IMG/VR virus record: IMGVR_UViG_3300021401_000005
Coordinates: 1 to 64,000 of that record
Length of the DNA stretch: 64,000 nt
Strand: one strand, 5' to 3'
Source: a virus
Below are positions 3,077 through 50,671 of the stretch, in pieces (position 1 is the first letter of the stretch; every line of letters starts with the position of its first letter). A program made the position numbers and the translations under genes. The notes under the pieces are model-generated. The model searched no databases. It saw only the letters and a list, made by a program, of their open reading frames with translations, and was not told the origin of the DNA.

Positions 3077-3339
3077 AGCGGATCGATATTGATGCTGTTC
3101 GCCTGCATGAGCCAGATGTCGATCTTCTGGCGGTCGTCCAGCTCGTCGACCATGCGGCGCAGCCGTTCGAGCACGCGCGCCTCGGCGCCTGGGGCGGCCT
3201 GCCAGGGTCCGGCGATCCATTGTCTTAGGTAACCCCTGATCGCCGCGACCTCGGCCGGCGTCAGTTCGTCCCGCGCGAGATAGGCCTCGACTGCTGGCCT
3301 CAAGACCCCGGACTGCTCGAACATCCAAAAACCGGGCAT
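3073..3339 (-). CDS. Conserved hypothetical protein (YLRQWI family)
   Basis: 88 residues. The core IRGYLRQWIAGPW and the end region (L.R.VD.L..R..ID.WL..A) match a small family common in proteobacterial chromosomes and prophages, of unknown function. The gene points left, away from the palindromic operator at 3360, so it is probably one arm of a divergent pair with 3456-4049. A second in-frame ATG at 3324 is an alternative start. Confidence 0.7.
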   Translation of the reverse strand: MPGFWMFEQSGVLRPAVEAYLARDELTPAEVAAIRGYLRQWIAGPWQAAPGAEARVLERLRRMVDELDDRQKIDIWLMQANSINIDPL

Positions 3340-3384: not shown

Positions 3385-3444
3385 CGCTGCTAGGCTTGGC
3401 CGGGCCATGCTGGGCATGGCGATGCGGCGCGCGGCAAGGCAAGG
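3385..3444 (+). repeat. GGCNN pentamer array 2 (5' leader)
   Basis: A short GGC-every-five-bases tract lies between the operator at 3360 and the ribosome site AAGGAGAG (3441-3448) of the next gene. It would form the 5' untranslated leader of that mRNA. Unlike the other arrays it has no terminal hairpin. Confidence 0.55.
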
Positions 3445-3455
3445 AGAGTCGAAAA

Positions 3456-4049
3456 ATGGAAATACTGGTGCATATCAGCGGCGTTACACCGCTGATCCTC
3501 AATCGATTCAGCGACGAAGCAGCTCTAATTGCGAGCGGCGGAACGCGCGGCGCAAGCGCGGGTGCCGAACGCAAGACCCCGCTCGATATTTGCGAATCGA
3601 AGCTCTACCGGGGGCTCGATGGTAGGCTGATAATCCCGCAACCCAACTTGTTGCGCAGCCTTGTGGACGGTGGCCGATTTCACAAAGTCGGAAAGAAGCA
3701 AGTCACGACCAAAGAAGAGTCGATGATGTTCGCGTGCGTGGACATCGAGGGCGCCGAAATCGCCCTGATCCACAAACAGCCGTGGAAAGTCGACACGAGA
3801 CCTGTTGTGATTCCTAGCACAAAAGGGAGAATTTTGGCCCATCGGCCGATGTTCGATGATTGGAGGTTGGAATTTGTCGTCAGCCTCGACACGTCTATTT
3901 TAGGACCTGGGATTTTTCGATCGATTGTCGACGACGCCGGGAAGCGGGTGGGGCTTGGTGACTTCCGCCCAGCGCGGAAAGGCCCGTACGGGCGCTATCG
4001 CGTCGATCATTGGGCGGTCGTCGAACAGGCAATCGCCGAAGCCGCTTAG
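3456..4049 (+). CDS. Phage protein with RAMP-like glycine-rich end
   Basis: 197 residues, starting at ATG 3456 behind AAGGAGAG; the upstream in-frame codons are array sequence and not protein-like. The pattern GVTPLILNRF (residues 9-18), LIIPQPNLLRSLV (58-70), W..DTRPVVIP...GRI..HRP.F.DW (110-136) and VGLGDFRPARKGPYGRYRV (165-183) matches a family found in phages and mobile elements. The beta-rich layout with a C-terminal glycine-rich loop is reminiscent of RAMP/Cas7-type folds, but that is my inference. Function is unknown. It is flanked by GGCNN arrays on both sides. Confidence 0.75.
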   Translation: MEILVHISGVTPLILNRFSDEAALIASGGTRGASAGAERKTPLDICESKLYRGLDGRLIIPQPNLLRSLVDGGRFHKVGKKQVTTKEESMMFACVDIEGAEIALIHKQPWKVDTRPVVIPSTKGRILAHRPMFDDWRLEFVVSLDTSILGPGIFRSIVDDAGKRVGLGDFRPARKGPYGRYRVDHWAVVEQAIAEAA

Positions 4050-4496
4050 CGTGGCGCGGCGGGGCATGGCACGGCACGGCGGCGCGGGGCGAAGCGACGC
4101 GAGGATATTTTATTGATTAGGCGAGGCTGGGCTAGGCTTGGCGAGGCGGCGCGATGCAGGGCTCGGCACGGCGCGGCTCGGCGTTGCACGGCGAGGTGGG
4201 GCGCGGCACGGCAGGGCGCGGGCAGGGCTGGGCAAGGCTACGCTTTGCGAAGCGCGGCGCGGCAAGGCCCGGTTTGGCACGGCATGGCTTGGCGTGGCTT
4301 GGCGTGGCGTGGCTCGGCAGGGCATGGCGAGGCACGGCGATGCGCGGCGACGCTAGGCTCGGCAAGGCGAGGATATTTTATTGATTGAGCTTAGCGAGGC
4401 GCGGCATGGCCCTGCACGGCGCGGCGTTTCAGGGCTTGGTTGGGCTAGGCTTTGCGATGCAAGGCTAGGCACGGGCGGGCAAGGCGAGGCAAGGGA
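4050..4496 (+). repeat. GGCNN pentamer array 3 (about 450 bases)
   Basis: The longest array: GGC-led pentamers (GGCAC, GGCGC, GGCTC, GGCGA, GGCAA and others) with slips. Two identical 18-base A/T-rich inserts (GAGGATATTTTATTGATT) lie at 4101-4118 and 4369-4386. Bases 4340-4370 are identical to 2521-2551. Open frames here give only Arg/Gly/Ala low-complexity peptides, so I call it non-coding. Confidence 0.8.
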
Positions 4497-4516
4497 GGGG
4501 CGGCTTCGGCCGCCCC
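4497..4516 (+). terminator. UUCG-tetraloop hairpin ending array 3
   Basis: GGGGCGGC-TTCG-GCCGCCCC: 8 bp closed by a very stable UUCG loop, directly after array 3. It lies 4 bases from the stop of the convergent ribbon-helix-helix gene, so it may end transcripts from the left. Confidence 0.65.
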
Positions 4517-4841: not shown

Positions 4842-5762
4842 ATGGAATACCCCGTTCATCCCGCCTGCGCTCTTTGGCCCCGCCCGTCCGACGAGGAGGT
4901 GATGGCGCTCGCTGAGAGCATCAGGAGGGAGGGGCTCCACAATCCGATCTGGCTCTACGAGGGGGCGATCCTCGACGGCAAGACGCGCTTTGAGGCTTGC
5001 GGGATCGCGAGCGTCGAGCCGCGCTTCGAGATCTTCAGCGGCGATGACCCGGTTAGATTTACGATTAGCCAGAATCGTTTGCGGCGGCATATGCAGATCG
5101 GAGAATTGTTGCTCATCGTTGCGGCGCTTTGTAAGTTGCGGCAACATCTTCATGGAAGAAATAAGCACTTAAGCAGGCAAGGCCTCGCGAGACCTTGCCT
5201 CCAAGAAGAGAAGACCGCAGAAGAATTGGCTAAAGAAGCTGGCATTGGAAGATCGAACATCGTCGCAGCCAAGACAGTTCTTCAAAATGGGGAAGAAAAT
5301 GTCGTTGAAATGGTTCGTGCCGGTGCTGTTGGGGCGCAAAGCGCCGCTCGGTTCGTCAGGAATACGCCGCGCGAACAGCAACGCAACGCTACTGTGAACG
5401 ACGTAAAGCAGGCTCGCCATCGCGAGAACGATGGTCGTCGCCCCAAAAGAGACGTCCCGGTCTGGGGCAAACACAATCGCCCCGTCATCATTCCATCCAA
5501 GAAAACGCTGGCAGAGAGGAAGAAGCCACAACCCATGCTCACGATCCCTTCGCGGGACCTGACGGAGAGACTCGCTCCAATCATCAAGACGCTCAAACAG
5601 CAAAGCAAATGCAGCATGGCCACAGTGTCGTTTACGACGCTGGCCGTCCTAGCAGGCGAGCTGGAGCATCTCGTTGAGGAATGGACGAGTGGCGGAACGG
5701 GATCTGAGCGCACCCCAAATTCCGCCAACTCAATCGCGCTTAACGAAAGGAAAGCATTATGA
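4842..5762 (+). CDS. ParB/Srx-type nuclease-domain protein
   Basis: 306 residues. The N-terminal ParB-like core reads PSDEEVMALAESIRREGLHNPIWLYEGAILDGKTRFEAC (about residues 15-53, broken here only by description), then a DNA-binding helical part (TAEELAKEAGIGRSNIVAAK). Such proteins act in partition or as phage nucleases or regulators. ATG 4842 is chosen because the inverted repeat abuts it and upstream frame is not conserved-looking. It overlaps the next gene by ATGA. The stretch from ~5110 to 5640 is visibly richer in A/T codons than its surroundings. Confidence 0.8.
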   Translation: MEYPVHPACALWPRPSDEEVMALAESIRREGLHNPIWLYEGAILDGKTRFEACGIASVEPRFEIFSGDDPVRFTISQNRLRRHMQIGELLLIVAALCKLRQHLHGRNKHLSRQGLARPCLQEEKTAEELAKEAGIGRSNIVAAKTVLQNGEENVVEMVRAGAVGAQSAARFVRNTPREQQRNATVNDVKQARHRENDGRRPKRDVPVWGKHNRPVIIPSKKTLAERKKPQPMLTIPSRDLTERLAPIIKTLKQQSKCSMATVSFTTLAVLAGELEHLVEEWTSGGTGSERTPNSANSIALNERKAL

Positions 5763-6930: not shown

Positions 6931-7650
6931 ATGTCCGCCCGCGCGAGCAATGGTGGCTCGCACACTGACGAGGAATGGCGCGCGCAGCTGCGGCGCCAAT
7001 TTCACCGCTGCAATAATCCGTTCTGCATGTGCGATCTGCGGGCGGACGGCGTCGTTGTTCACCGAGATCACCTGATCCCGGTGACCAGCGGCGGCAAAGA
7101 CGACATTTCGAACATTCGAGCGATGTGCGCCCCGTGCAATTTGCGCAAGGGCGCGAAGGCGTGGCGCGTTTTCCTGGCCGAGGAACGCCTCGCGAGAACG
7201 TCCCGAAAGAATCGCGTGACGTTCCACCCCGTCTGGCCGATCGGCTCCGTCGTGCTGTTCACCGTAGGCCTGATCAAAGGCCTCGCATTCGGTCCGCTGG
7301 CGATTGTGTTCCTCGGCTTCGCCTGCTTGGCCTTATTCGGCCTTGGTTGGGTCTCCAGGCTGCTCAATGGTCTCTTAAGCCTCTGCCTCGTGCCGCTGAT
7401 CAGGTGGGCGTTGCGCGGCCCCCACGTCCAGCGCGTCGGCGTCGCGCTCGGCGCTTTGGTTATGGTGGTGCTGATGACCGGGGGAGACGCGCGGGTGAAC
7501 GACACTGGCCATGGCATGCGCCCCAAGCCGAGGCTTGAGGCCGGCCCCATCGCGATTTGGCGCGCGCCCGCGCTGCCGGCGAAAATACCGTGGCCGCCTA
7601 AGCGACCGTGGTATCTCGATCGACCATTCGGGACACGACCGACCGGGTGA
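6931..7650 (+). CDS. HNH endonuclease domain fused to membrane segments
   Basis: 239 residues. Residues 24-73 form an HNH module: C27, C32/C34, HRDH (44-47), N61, C66-x2-C69-N70 and K73. Residues ~103-160 contain two or more strongly hydrophobic helices, and 175-190 another. Free HNH nucleases are common in phages; a membrane-tethered one is unusual and could act at the envelope, for example on incoming DNA. Its 3' end converges on and overlaps the recombinase gene by 53 bases. Confidence 0.75.
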   Translation: MSARASNGGSHTDEEWRAQLRRQFHRCNNPFCMCDLRADGVVVHRDHLIPVTSGGKDDISNIRAMCAPCNLRKGAKAWRVFLAEERLARTSRKNRVTFHPVWPIGSVVLFTVGLIKGLAFGPLAIVFLGFACLALFGLGWVSRLLNGLLSLCLVPLIRWALRGPHVQRVGVALGALVMVVLMTGGDARVNDTGHGMRPKPRLEAGPIAIWRAPALPAKIPWPPKRPWYLDRPFGTRPTG

Positions 7651-8263
7651 ATGGCGTGCCGGTCGAACTGACATAGCCCAGGTTCGCCAGCGCCACCCGC
7701 ACCCCGTTCAGCGACTTGCCAGACTGGCGCAGTTCGCGCGCCATCGCGACCATCGCCGGGTCCATTTCGGTCCAGCTCTTGCGCCCCTCGCATTTGCCGG
7801 TCGAAGCCTTCTTGCGCGCCCTCGCCGCCTTGAGCTTGGCGACCGTCAATGCCCGGTCGAACTCGGCCACCGCGCCCAGGATCTGGCGGACCAGGGACGC
7901 CGTCGGCGTGTCCTCGACGAAGCTCGACGGCGAATCGACGGCGATCAGCTCGACGCCGAGATCCTGAAGCATTTTCCAGCCGGTCTCCTGCACCATGAGA
8001 TCGCGGGCGAAGCGGTTGGCGGTCTCGACGAGGATCGTCCGCACGCCGTTGCTAGCGATGCGTTGGAGCATGAGGCTGAAGCCCTCGCGCTGGGTGACCG
8101 GATCGGCGCCGGAGACGGCGGCGTCGTAGTATTCGCCGACGATCTCGATGTCGTTGCGCGCCGCATAGTCGCGGACGGCCTTCTCCTGGCGGGGGAGGCT
8201 GTCTTTGTCCGCGCCGACGTTGGTGGCCGACGAGGTTCTGAAGTAGGCGACGGCGTGTTTCAT
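7598..8263 (-). CDS. Serine recombinase (resolvase/invertase family)
   Basis: 221 residues from ATG 8263 (AGGAG upstream). Catalytic region AYFRTSS with Ser 11 after Arg 9, SLPRQ at 22-26, ETANRFARD (80-88) carrying the second arginine pair, then the long E helix (GAVAEFDRALTVAKLKAARA) and a short HTH tail. The size fits a small resolvase/invertase, not a large serine integrase, so it may resolve multimers or invert a segment; no crossover site was identified. Confidence 0.9.
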   Translation of the reverse strand: MKHAVAYFRTSSATNVGADKDSLPRQEKAVRDYAARNDIEIVGEYYDAAVSGADPVTQREGFSLMLQRIASNGVRTILVETANRFARDLMVQETGWKMLQDLGVELIAVDSPSSFVEDTPTASLVRQILGAVAEFDRALTVAKLKAARARKKASTGKCEGRKSWTEMDPAMVAMARELRQSGKSLNGVRVALANLGYVSSTGTPFTRSVVSRMVDRDTTVA

Positions 8264-45691: not shown

Positions 45692-46348
45692 ATGCACAAG
45701 CTTCTTTTGTCCGCCGCGATGCTCGCTGCGATCGGCGTTTCGCCCGCTCATGCGACGCTGCAAATCGAGATCTTCGATAATGGGACGCTGATCGACAACG
45801 TCACGGGAATCACCACGGGCGCGGCGAGCCTCACCACCAACGACGCCAACTTCGCCAACATCACCATCAACGCGCAGGGCTCACCCATCCTGCCCAATGC
45901 GGACCTGTCCAGCGTCACGCTCGACGCCACCGCTTCGGCCGGCTTCACGGGCTCGCACGAACTGACGTTTGACGTCATTCAAAGCGCCGTGGCTGGGACC
46001 GGGAACACGCAATCGACCTTCACGGTCAACGGGCTGGTCAACGATCCCGGCCCGACAACCGAGCGCACGTTCGCAGATGGCGTGCTGCTCGCCTCGCACA
46101 CGTTCCCTGTCGGGCTGCTTGACGGCTCTTTTGGCCCGGTCTCGGCAGCGACTGGTGCATTCACCGAGGATGAAATCCAATTCGCCGTCGACTTCACGGC
46201 AGCGAGGCAATCGTTCGGCGGTTCGGCCCAGCTAACGACTAGCATTCCAGAGACGAAGACCTGGGCGATGATGCTGCTCGGCTTCGGCCTGATGGCGTTC
46301 CTTGGTGTCAGGAAGTCCCGCAAGGACAGGTTGGCCGCATTCGCATAG
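45692..46348 (+). CDS. PEP-CTERM exported protein 1
   Basis: 218 residues. N-terminal signal peptide (MHKLLLSAAMLAAIGVSPAHA). Middle is a beta-rich Thr/Asn/Ala domain. C-terminal sorting signal: SIPETKTWAMMLLGFGLMAF then basic VRKSRKDR, i.e. the P-E-x motif, TM helix and basic tail of exosortase (EpsH-type) substrates. In the host it would be exported, cut by exosortase and placed on the surface or in exopolysaccharide. No exosortase is visible here, so the host's would be used. Confidence 0.85.
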   Translation: MHKLLLSAAMLAAIGVSPAHATLQIEIFDNGTLIDNVTGITTGAASLTTNDANFANITINAQGSPILPNADLSSVTLDATASAGFTGSHELTFDVIQSAVAGTGNTQSTFTVNGLVNDPGPTTERTFADGVLLASHTFPVGLLDGSFGPVSAATGAFTEDEIQFAVDFTAARQSFGGSAQLTTSIPETKTWAMMLLGFGLMAFLGVRKSRKDRLAAFA

Positions 46349-47580: not shown

Positions 47581-48336
47581 ATGCGCAAAGCCGTCCAGTA
47601 TCCCTTGGCATTCGGCGCGCCGATGCTGGGGATGCTGCTGCTCATCGATACGGTTGCTGAACCAGAATCGCTCGTCCGTCGCGCGCGGCAGATGGCCGAC
47701 GACCTTGCATCGGCCGTCACCAAGGTAATCACCAAAGCCAGCTATCCCCACATGCCGTGGCCGCCCGCCGTGGTCGCCAAACTCAAGCCAATCGATCCTG
47801 ACGACGTTCAAAAGAACGACAAGCACTTATTTTGGCGCACGGTGTACGACACCAACGAAATCCATCGCGTTGAGGCCGATCCGCCGCCAGCAATGAATTT
47901 CAACACTTCGGTGGCTCAGCCGCCGTTGCCGCCAACGGTTACTTTCAACGATGGCGGCTCTTCGTCGGGCGGCGGCGCGACCGACTCGACCACGCCTTGC
48001 ATGACGGCGATGGTCGGTGGCGTCTGCCCCGTGCCATGCTCATCGAATGATATTTCTCTGTTGTGCGAGGAAAAGAAGGTGGACACCGCCGCTGCCGATC
48101 TCTCCCCGGCCTTGCAGAAGCTGCTTGGCTTTGATGATCCCGGCGCCCCAGTGATCGGCGATCCGCCGCATGTCGGCGGCATTGGCGGCTTCGCAGGGGG
48201 TGGCGGCGGCGGCGCAGGCGGCGCAGGCACCATCCCCGAGCCGTCCACATGGGTGATGCTGATCTTTGGCTTTGGGCTGATGGCATGGATGAGTCGACGC
48301 TCCATCGCGCGGCGGGCTTCTTCGTCAATGGACTGA
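47581..48336 (+). CDS. PEP-CTERM exported protein 2
   Basis: 251 residues. N-terminal hydrophobic anchor/signal (YPLAFGAPMLGMLLLIDTV); four cysteines in the middle (CMTAMVGGVCPVPC, LLCEE); Gly-rich linker; then the canonical PEP-CTERM signal TIPEPSTWVMLIFGFGLMAW with SRRSIARRAS. The GFGLMA run is shared with protein 1. Predicted exosortase substrate. The 3' end overlaps 48285-48455. Confidence 0.88.
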   Translation: MRKAVQYPLAFGAPMLGMLLLIDTVAEPESLVRRARQMADDLASAVTKVITKASYPHMPWPPAVVAKLKPIDPDDVQKNDKHLFWRTVYDTNEIHRVEADPPPAMNFNTSVAQPPLPPTVTFNDGGSSSGGGATDSTTPCMTAMVGGVCPVPCSSNDISLLCEEKKVDTAAADLSPALQKLLGFDDPGAPVIGDPPHVGGIGGFAGGGGGGAGGAGTIPEPSTWVMLIFGFGLMAWMSRRSIARRASSSMD

Positions 48337-49755: not shown

Positions 49756-49934
49756 GCCTGGGAACCCTCCTCCTCATCATCCTGATCATCATCCTGATTG
49801 GAGGCGTCGGCCCGCGCTTCTACTCCGGCGCACCCTGGCAACCGGGCTACGGCTTTGGCAACGGCGGCATCAGCCTGATCGGCATCCTGCTGATCATCGT
49901 CGTCGTCTTGCTGCTGACAGGCAGGCTAGGCTAG
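49752..49934 (+). CDS. DUF3309-family small membrane protein
   Basis: 60 residues, ATGA-coupled. Two hydrophobic segments (LLLIILIIILIGG; LIGILLIIVVVLLL) around PWQPGYGFGNGG match the DUF3309 family of proteobacteria. Function unknown. Its stop codon's last base is the first base of the CRISPR-like repeat. Confidence 0.8.
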   Translation: MSLGTLLLIILIIILIGGVGPRFYSGAPWQPGYGFGNGGISLIGILLIIVVVLLLTGRLG

Positions 49935-49963
49935 TTTCGATCCACGCCCCTCTGCGGGGCGAC
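49934..49963 (-). CRISPR. Solitary type I-C-like CRISPR repeat
   Basis: Read on the - strand: GTCGCCCC, loop GCAGA, then GGGGCGTGGATCGAAAC. This has the 5' GTCGC, the stem CGCCCC/GGGGCG and the 3' GTGGATTGAAAC-type end (one change, T to C) of type I-C repeats (30 bases against a usual 32). There is no second copy or spacer series here and no cas gene. Phage-borne solitary repeats of this kind are known to act as RNA anti-CRISPRs; this one is a candidate. Confidence 0.65.
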
Positions 49964-49977
49964 TCGGTTTTAAAAGA

Positions 49978-50083
49978 GGGAGACCGCGCTTCCGTAGGAG
50001 GTAAAAATCTATTGAAGGCGGTCTCCCGAAGTGCCCCCAGGCGAGGCGGCGCCGGGGGCAAAGCCGGGTTGTGGGACCCGGCT
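49978..50083 (+). ncRNA. Multi-hairpin element beside the CRISPR-like repeat
   Basis: Three strong stems in a row: GGGAGACCGC/GCGGTCTCCC (49978-50027, extended by CTTC/GAAG) showing a full ribosome-site sequence TAGGAGGT in its loop; TGCCCCC/GGGGGCA (50032-50060, inner GGCG/CGCC); AGCCGGGT/ACCCGGCT (50062-50083). A TTG after the TAGGAGGT could open a 39-codon frame to 50131. On the - strand the first stem is followed by TCTTTT, so it could be a terminator that way. Structured RNA or attenuated mini-gene; identity unknown. Confidence 0.5.
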
Positions 50084-50113
50084 CAATTCGCGTGTAACGC
50101 AAATTTGAACAAT

Positions 50114-50128
50114 TTGCACGTTCTGTTT
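50114..50128. promoter_or_regulatory. Degenerate TTGCA-N5-TGCAA site
   Basis: TTGCACGTTCTGTTT equals the reverse complement of the operator at 56694 except for two of the last three bases (CAA to TTT). It is embedded in an A/T-rich inverted repeat, CAAATT/AATTTG. Perhaps a decayed operator. Confidence 0.3.
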
Positions 50129-50169
50129 TAGCGCTAGGCCTGGGAAAAATTACCTAACCGCGTTGAGAA

Positions 50170-50198
50170 GGAGGGGCGGGTTAGGTGCCCGCCCCTCC
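50170..50198 (-). terminator. Strong hairpin ending GGCNN array 5
   Basis: GGAGGGGCGGG / CCCGCCCCTCC, 11 bp perfect, with TTCT after it on the - strand. It would end the transcript coming from 50306-56537 after array 5. Loop and stem resemble the + strand of 16975-16997. Confidence 0.7.
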
Positions 50199-50300
50199 TA
50201 AATGCACGGCCTGCCACGCCTGCCGTGCCTTGCCGAGCGACGCCGCGCCTAACCGCGCCATGCCGCGCCGAGCCCAGCTCTGCCATGCCTGCCACAGCTT
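50199..50300 (-). repeat. GGCNN pentamer array 5 (- strand)
   Basis: On the - strand this is a GGC-led pentamer tract (GGCATGGCAGAGCTGGGCTC and onward) between the stop of 50306-50671 and the hairpin. No protein-like frame. Confidence 0.65.
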
Positions 50301-50305
50301 ATGCC

Positions 50306-50671
50306 TTACCCTTCAAGCGAAATCAACATGTCCGCGATGCTGTAGGCCGTGTCCGCGTCCTTCGTCGACCAGTCGCTGATCGGGCTCTCGCCCCGCCGAT
50401 GGATCGCCAGCGCGACCATGAGAATGGCATCTCGCCGCGCCTCGGAGCGCTTCTTGGCATTGCCGTTGGCGGCGGCGGCGATGCCGTGGTCTGCGTCGCC
50501 CAGGATCTCCTTTTCGCTTGGCGGGATGGCGCCGAGCATGCGCTTGAAGGCGGGGATCTCGCGCGTGGGCTCGCGCGTCGGGGTTGCGGGGATGCCGACG
50601 CCGGCGCCGGCGCGAACCTCGGCTTGTCCTTCGATGGTGGGTCGCCACGTCTGGTTCAACTCGTCACTCAT
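50306..50671 (-). CDS. Hypothetical helical protein
   Basis: 121 residues from ATG 50671 (AAGGAGCAACTGAA). Last gene of the long - strand operon. Residues ~40-118 (AFKRMLGAIPPSEKEILGDADHG, SEARRDAILMVALAIHRRGESPISDWSTKDADTAYSIADMLI) look helical and globular. No family recognised. Confidence 0.65.
   Translation of the reverse strand: MSDELNQTWRPTIEGQAEVRAGAGVGIPATPTREPTREIPAFKRMLGAIPPSEKEILGDADHGIAAAANGNAKKRSEARRDAILMVALAIHRRGESPISDWSTKDADTAYSIADMLISLEG

Follow-up and report, generated by a model that had tools for sequence, protein, structure and literature searches.

A three-hairpin RNA element with two conserved loops between two convergent operons in a group of soil-type phages

The stretch of viral DNA analysed in this work (hereafter the window, that is, 64,000 nt representing positions 1 to 64,000 of the IMG/VR record IMGVR_UViG_3300021401_000005, whose whole length is 73,765 bases) raises the question of what a small intergenic segment rich in hairpins might do. 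The record carries terminase, portal, RecE and RecT genes and belongs to a tailed phage, and the segment sits between the end of a lysis operon (plus strand) and the end of a recE/recT operon (minus strand), the two operons being convergent. An earlier note on this DNA had described three perfect or near-perfect stems at 49964-50133, and both direct reading and an inverted-repeat search recovered all of them: 49978-49987 pairs with 50018-50027 (10 of 10 positions, with an inner helix CTTCC/GAAGG), 50032-50038 with 50054-50060, and 50062-50069 with 50076-50083 (8 of 8). Equally present are the full anti-16S match that had been placed in the loop of the first stem, namely TAGGAGGT at 49995-50002, a motif occurring twice in the 64 kb, and the TCTTTT said to follow this stem when the minus strand is read. 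The claim that the segment lies in the longest non-repeat gene-free tract could not be confirmed, since, on a rough gene call, the gap (49935-50305, 371 bases) is one among several of similar size in the window and its right part is repeat-like. The features discussed below are collected in Table 1, where hairpins are numbered along the minus strand.

Table 1. Features of the hairpin element, of its surroundings and of other parts of the window (positions are those of the window; a dot marks a feature without strand).
Feature	Position	Strand	Basis or remark
Three-hairpin non-coding RNA, ~125 nt	49968..50094	-	Covariance model R1 and covariation; putative 5' end ~50090, putative 3' end ~49968
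First hairpin (third stem of the earlier note)	50062..50083	-	Hexaloop CCCACA at 50070-50075
Second hairpin, C/G-rich	50032..50060	-	Inner part varies; 5 outer pairs retained in almost every copy
Third hairpin (first stem of the earlier note)	49978..50027	-	Loop ATTTTTACCTCCTACGG; anti-Shine-Dalgarno ACCTCCT at 49996-50002
U tract, terminator-like, TCTTTTAAAA	49968..49977	-	After the third hairpin
Box AAAACAGAACGTGCAAA upstream of the RNA; putative promoter or regulator-binding site	50113..50129	-	Core GTGCAAA
Dyad TAGG...CCTA	50135..50156	.	Upstream of the box
Type I-C-like CRISPR repeat, solitary	49934..49963	-	crRNA sense GTCGCCCCGCAGAGGGGCGTGGATCGAAAC; single copy
TTG frame, 39 codons	50012-50131	+	Read directly
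Small helical protein gene, conserved	50306-50671	-	No Pfam or PHROG match
Predicted secreted proteins with PEP-CTERM-like tails, e.g. IPEPSTWVMLIFGFGLMAW	45692-46348, 47581-48336	+	In a phage genome
tRNA-Thr call	7876-7968	+	ARAGORN; lies within the resolvase gene 7598-8263 (-), in antisense

Some of these features lie apart from the element. The tRNA-Thr call is possibly a false one or the remnant of an integration site. Gene-free tracts of a repeat with a pentamer period, GGCNN or its complement, occur at 2497-2561, 3388-3452, 4048-4497 and 50205-50300; the last of them, together with a perfect 12-bp hairpin at 50169-50199, is an addition of the window with respect to its close relative L007, in which the end of the neighbouring gene follows the element directly. 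Prophage terminases with identities of at most 59% were found in the order of Xanthobacter.

Relatives were sought in IMG/VR by means of the upstream lysis protein, of the neighbouring minus-strand proteins and of the linear motif of the element itself. Ten distinct copies were obtained (the window, L007, L002, L063, L060, L101, L125, L067, L068 and L281); in addition, L003 and L004 are identical to L002, L129 is identical to L101, and L062 is a close, truncated variant of L060. In the copies with readable flanks the element lies between the end of a lysis or other plus-strand gene and that of a gene resembling 50306-50671 on the opposite strand. The latter protein thus adjoins the RNA in relatives with a readable flank, and one further contig (L284) harbors the protein gene without any match to the element; the predicted structure of the protein is helical (mean pLDDT 65.7) and gave no further insight. 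In phages whose lysis protein belongs to a different gene order, of which L008 to L034 were examined, the element was not found, a search of genome contigs with the lysis protein returned no relatives, and a DNA-pattern scan for the box plus the loop outside the clade yielded 25 new contigs, none of which matched the covariance model. Annotated phages and plasmids contained no homologue, and neither did 385 genomes sampled from one alphaproteobacterial class; the family is thus restricted, to date, to a single group of soil-type phages.

Do the hairpins persist in these copies beyond what chance would give? A covariance model (R1) built from seven copies matches all ten, including the three that were not used in building it, which score 27.1 (L068), 24.4 (L067) and 29.3 bits (L281) at the syntenic place (E ~1e-4 to 1e-7). 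When the seven copies were aligned with MAFFT, independently of any structure, the consensus had three hairpins and two-sided change in 8 of its 32 pairs. For a chosen set of 27 pairs in the seven-copy alignment, 99.5% of the cells are paired versus 94.4% after shuffling, and two-sided changes number 13 versus 4.5. Adding L067 and L068 brings two-sided change to 12 of the 27 pairs (3.9 in shuffles, 0-4 when slid), counts that are biased towards the model, to which this alignment had been fitted. The three hairpins are predicted in all copies except L068, where the middle helix is rearranged and the second hairpin seems to be absent or rearranged. The compensatory changes on which the earlier note had made its idea of a multi-hairpin RNA depend are therefore to be seen in the relatives, and they speak for a conserved element of the RNA type. 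No Rfam family reached the gathering score in the window, where only a CRISPR repeat model appeared below threshold (E up to 5), and none was matched in the relatives. We conclude that the element is a structured RNA conserved within one phage group, its structure being better kept than chance would allow, and that it is a new family within a known kind, the phage-encoded small RNAs, without a match in the libraries searched.

A second question concerns the strand. Compared with its dinucleotide shuffles, the segment 49930-50135 folds better on both strands, with z = -3.65 for the plus and z = -7.09 for the minus strand. The z-score favours the minus strand in every one of the ten copies, most widely in L067 (-5.3 vs -1.3). 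The consensus energy is -53.4 kcal/mol on the minus strand versus -40.7 kcal/mol on the plus strand, and the covariation term -2.61 versus -0.44 kcal/mol. Read on the minus strand, the non-Watson-Crick cells comprise 16 G-U versus 1 A-C, the single A-C pair (in L068) being the one that would suit the plus strand; these counts come from few, related sequences and from an alignment (A7) fitted to the minus-strand structure, and, the cells not being independent, the nominal p of 0.0003 should be read as indicative only. Taken together, the active strand is likely the minus one. There the motif TAGGAGGT reads ACCUCCU, an anti-Shine-Dalgarno sequence, so that the strand evidence turns against the plus-strand “ribosome site” of the earlier note.

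On the opposite assumption, the plus strand would be active and the element would form the 3' untranslated region of the lysis operon, exposing TAGGAGGT as a possible decoy for the 30S subunit or for a GGA-binding regulator. In its favour, the last gene of the lysis operon in L002, L060 and L063 is followed, directly behind its stop codon, by the stem that carries the motif, which is a full anti-16S match; however, the plus-strand fold compares worse with shuffles in every copy, the G-U/A-C balance stands at 1:16 against it, and in the plus-strand prediction the motif is partly paired with CTTCC. We consider this reading improbable.

The plus strand has also been credited with a gene. The ribosome site followed by a TTG frame that the earlier note had pointed out survives as far as the motif and the frame themselves are concerned, both being present in the window, and fails as a shared gene start. 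An open frame behind a strong Shine-Dalgarno motif might suggest that a 39-codon protein starting from TTG 50012 accounts for the conservation; nevertheless, an indel interrupts it in L007, whose sequence is 97% identical otherwise, it is frameshifted in L002, and a standard start codon after the motif is missing in L002, L060, L063 and L101. Because of the broken frame in L007 and of the missing start codons in the relatives, the motif must be conserved without coding use. The frame as a conserved gene is refuted for the relatives examined, and this protein is hardly credible as the reason for the conservation.

If neither a protein nor the plus strand explains the element, what has been kept constant in it? 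All ten copies share the hexaloop CCCACA without a single change, over a first hairpin in which 5 of the 8 pairs show two-sided change and the pairs closing the loop vary (GGGU/ACCC, GGAG/CUCC, CGAG/CUCU). In the third hairpin the 14-nt loop TTTACCTCCTACGG is kept in the seven closer copies over a stem changing from A-U to G-C and from U-A to C-G; its core UUUACCUCCUACGG, which is fixed in the same 7 of 10 copies, complements the Shine-Dalgarno sequence and matches the 3' end of the 16S rRNA. In the remaining three the long stem is retained with a different, pyrimidine-containing loop; the exact anti-Shine-Dalgarno sequence is missing there, and only related pyrimidine runs are found (CCUCUCCU in L281, ACUCC in L068, GCCUCG in L067). 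Judging from these comparisons, fixed loops over changing stems are the pattern that would be expected of an RNA binding through its loops, and they exceed what a terminator would need. Because two loops are conserved, the element appears to be more than a terminator, which supports the idea that it does not match a terminator-only design.

The bearing of termination on the element deserves to be weighed in its own right. The U tract comprises 4-5 T in the window, L007, L002 and L063, and 3 T in L060, L101 and L125, and it is lacking in L067, L068 and L281. Termination at the U tract is plausible in the window, the feature itself not being conserved across copies. A purely intrinsic terminator was rejected as an explanation, since a GC-rich stem plus U tract is not kept across the relatives (4-5 T in 4/10, 3 T in 3/10, none in 3/10). 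A broader version of the idea is the main rival of the reading that we favour: the GC-rich hairpins might form a structured 3' end, or insulator, common to the two convergent operons, which would terminate transcripts coming from one side or from both and protect their 3' ends from exonucleases with no role in trans. This would fit the compact relatives, where the stop codons of both operons border the element directly, the U tract following the third hairpin on the minus strand in several copies, and the repeat hairpin of the window, which, read on the plus strand with the adjoining GGTTTT, resembles a terminator. However, an invariant hexaloop under changing stems and a conserved 14-nt loop would be needless for a plain terminator, the hairpins persist in the three copies devoid of a U tract, and L068 possesses its own plus-strand terminator-like hairpin with TTTTCTTT ahead of the element. 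We regard the insulator as a serious contender, albeit a somewhat unlikely one.

As to the other end of the RNA, the core of the upstream box is present in all copies (as ATGCAAA in L068). At a distance of 15 to 17 bases past the box most copies show a TA-rich hexamer (TTACAC, TTACAT, CTATAG, CTATAT or CTATGAT), which in the window is the TTACAC of 50092-50097. A scan with the sigma-70 consensus found no convincing promoter, and sigma-54 and EcfG promoters were discarded by eye, the spacing being wrong; a repeated phage promoter was likewise dismissed, the box being single-copy in the window. A regulated promoter at the box is our guess. The dyad lying farther upstream is found in most relatives with varying arms (~12 pairs at most, in L060) and was not seen in L068; it may be an operator or an extra hairpin. 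In L281 (~3180-3200) the box is palindromic, TTTGCACGTTGTGCAAA, which suggests a putative operator for a dimeric regulator.

The same box and dyad, together with the palindrome of L281 and with a ParB-like gene that lies in another part of the phage and matches HTH_ParB weakly, might also speak for a DNA element, i.e., a replication origin or a partition or recombination site whose inverted repeats would act as DNA. Nevertheless, loops that stay conserved, and changes that G-U pairing tolerates, are what a single-stranded RNA would show rather than duplex DNA, and a box in single copy argues in the same direction; this explanation is, in our opinion, very improbable.

The reading that we favour, with a confidence that stays a little short of even, is that of a ~125-nt phage non-coding RNA, made from the minus strand (50094 to 49968) and acting via two exposed loops. 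According to this model, transcription would proceed from 50094 to 49968 and the product would fold into the three hairpins; in the clade of the window, the last hairpin plus TCTTTT may also stop the transcript. The working parts would most likely be the invariant CCCACA and, in the closer relatives, the anti-Shine-Dalgarno UUUACCUCCUACGG. The latter might pair with the Shine-Dalgarno regions of phage or host mRNAs and in this way lower their translation, as the corresponding loops of the alpha-r14/NfeR1 RNAs do. Among the mRNAs of the phage, the best matches to the loop are ordinary Shine-Dalgarno sites, the strongest being that of the ParB-like gene at 4902, and only 3 of 86 starts exceed the 1% background, so that phage targets were not convincing; no specific target stands out because any anti-Shine-Dalgarno sequence matches many start sites.

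A remaining issue concerns the solitary CRISPR repeat beside the element. It is intergenic, it adopts the hairpin fold of a repeat, many alphaproteobacterial array repeats have exactly its arms, and, among the loci listed, type I-C repeats with the same arms occur almost only in Alphaproteobacteria; an array with these arms (L168) adjoins Cas3c, Cas5c, Cas8c, Cas4c and Cas1c, that is, a type I-C system. The possibility that repeat and hairpins are conserved together is not borne out, since the other copies keep the hairpins without the repeat: only the window and L007 possess the repeat, which is inserted there between a stop codon and the hairpins (2 of 10 copies, versus 10 of 10 for the hairpins). 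Its crRNA sense lies on the strand of the proposed RNA, 14 nt downstream of the third hairpin, so that read-through would make an RNA anti-CRISPR (Racr), and the repeat could be one produced in this manner. For solitary repeats, the SRUFinder criteria are an identity of at least 90% and a bit score of at least 41.1 (PMC10651486). Against the best of a limited set of 70 repeats, the global identity is 90.6% in the window and 93.8% in L007, with 36-40 bits; as these scores fall below the cut-off, the repeat is a Racr candidate only. Single matches to the type I-C repeat pattern GTTTCAATCCACGCCCC...GGGGCGAC were also observed in L051, L053, L054, L055 and L056, in unrelated surroundings, and might be further solitary repeats.

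It is conceivable, even though we find it quite doubtful, that the new RNA family retunes or attacks translation via its anti-Shine-Dalgarno and CCCACA loops and has been extended in two phages, by read-through past its weak terminator, to a type I-C repeat mimic that would titrate the Cas5c/Cascade of the host. The solitary repeat beside it illustrates concretely how an RNA anti-CRISPR could gain a promoter, namely by landing directly behind an existing RNA gene. To our knowledge, few structured RNAs supported by covariation have been described from phages of soil Alphaproteobacteria.

The element can be compared with three known systems. The repeat at 49934-49963 resembles the Racrs in being solitary and intergenic, with type I-C arms and a repeat-hairpin fold (PMC10651486), whereas the three-hairpin RNA is no repeat mimic, and the repeat lies behind the RNA and in two phages only. 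The c4 RNA of P1/P7, an example of the phage regulatory RNAs that occlude ribosome-binding sites, is likewise a phage-borne structured RNA with complementary sequences in its loops (reviewed in PMC12197685); it differs in having one known target, the ant mRNA, and its sequence and fold are unrelated to those of the element. The closest likeness concerns the alpha-r14/NfeR1 RNAs, which include NfeR1 of Sinorhizobium meliloti and SmelA075/SmelA099 and which silence mRNAs through three hairpins with CCUCCUCCC loops (PMC10746234, PMC3927594). Three hairpins (predicted here in 9 of 10 copies), an unpaired anti-Shine-Dalgarno loop, diverging stems with a steady loop and a probably alphaproteobacterial host are common to both. 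In contrast, the phage-encoded element carries the anti-Shine-Dalgarno sequence in one of three loops, as UUUACCUCCUACGG instead of CCUCCUCCC, and exposes CCCACA in another; with one such loop only, a different motif and no Rfam model matched, it was not assigned to the alpha-r14/NfeR1 family. By analogy, mRNA silencing by pairing at the translation start, as in that family, might be its mode of action. Should the RNA act as proposed, it would represent a phage counterpart of the host's own anti-Shine-Dalgarno small RNAs, the two loops giving the exact bases on which this can be tested.
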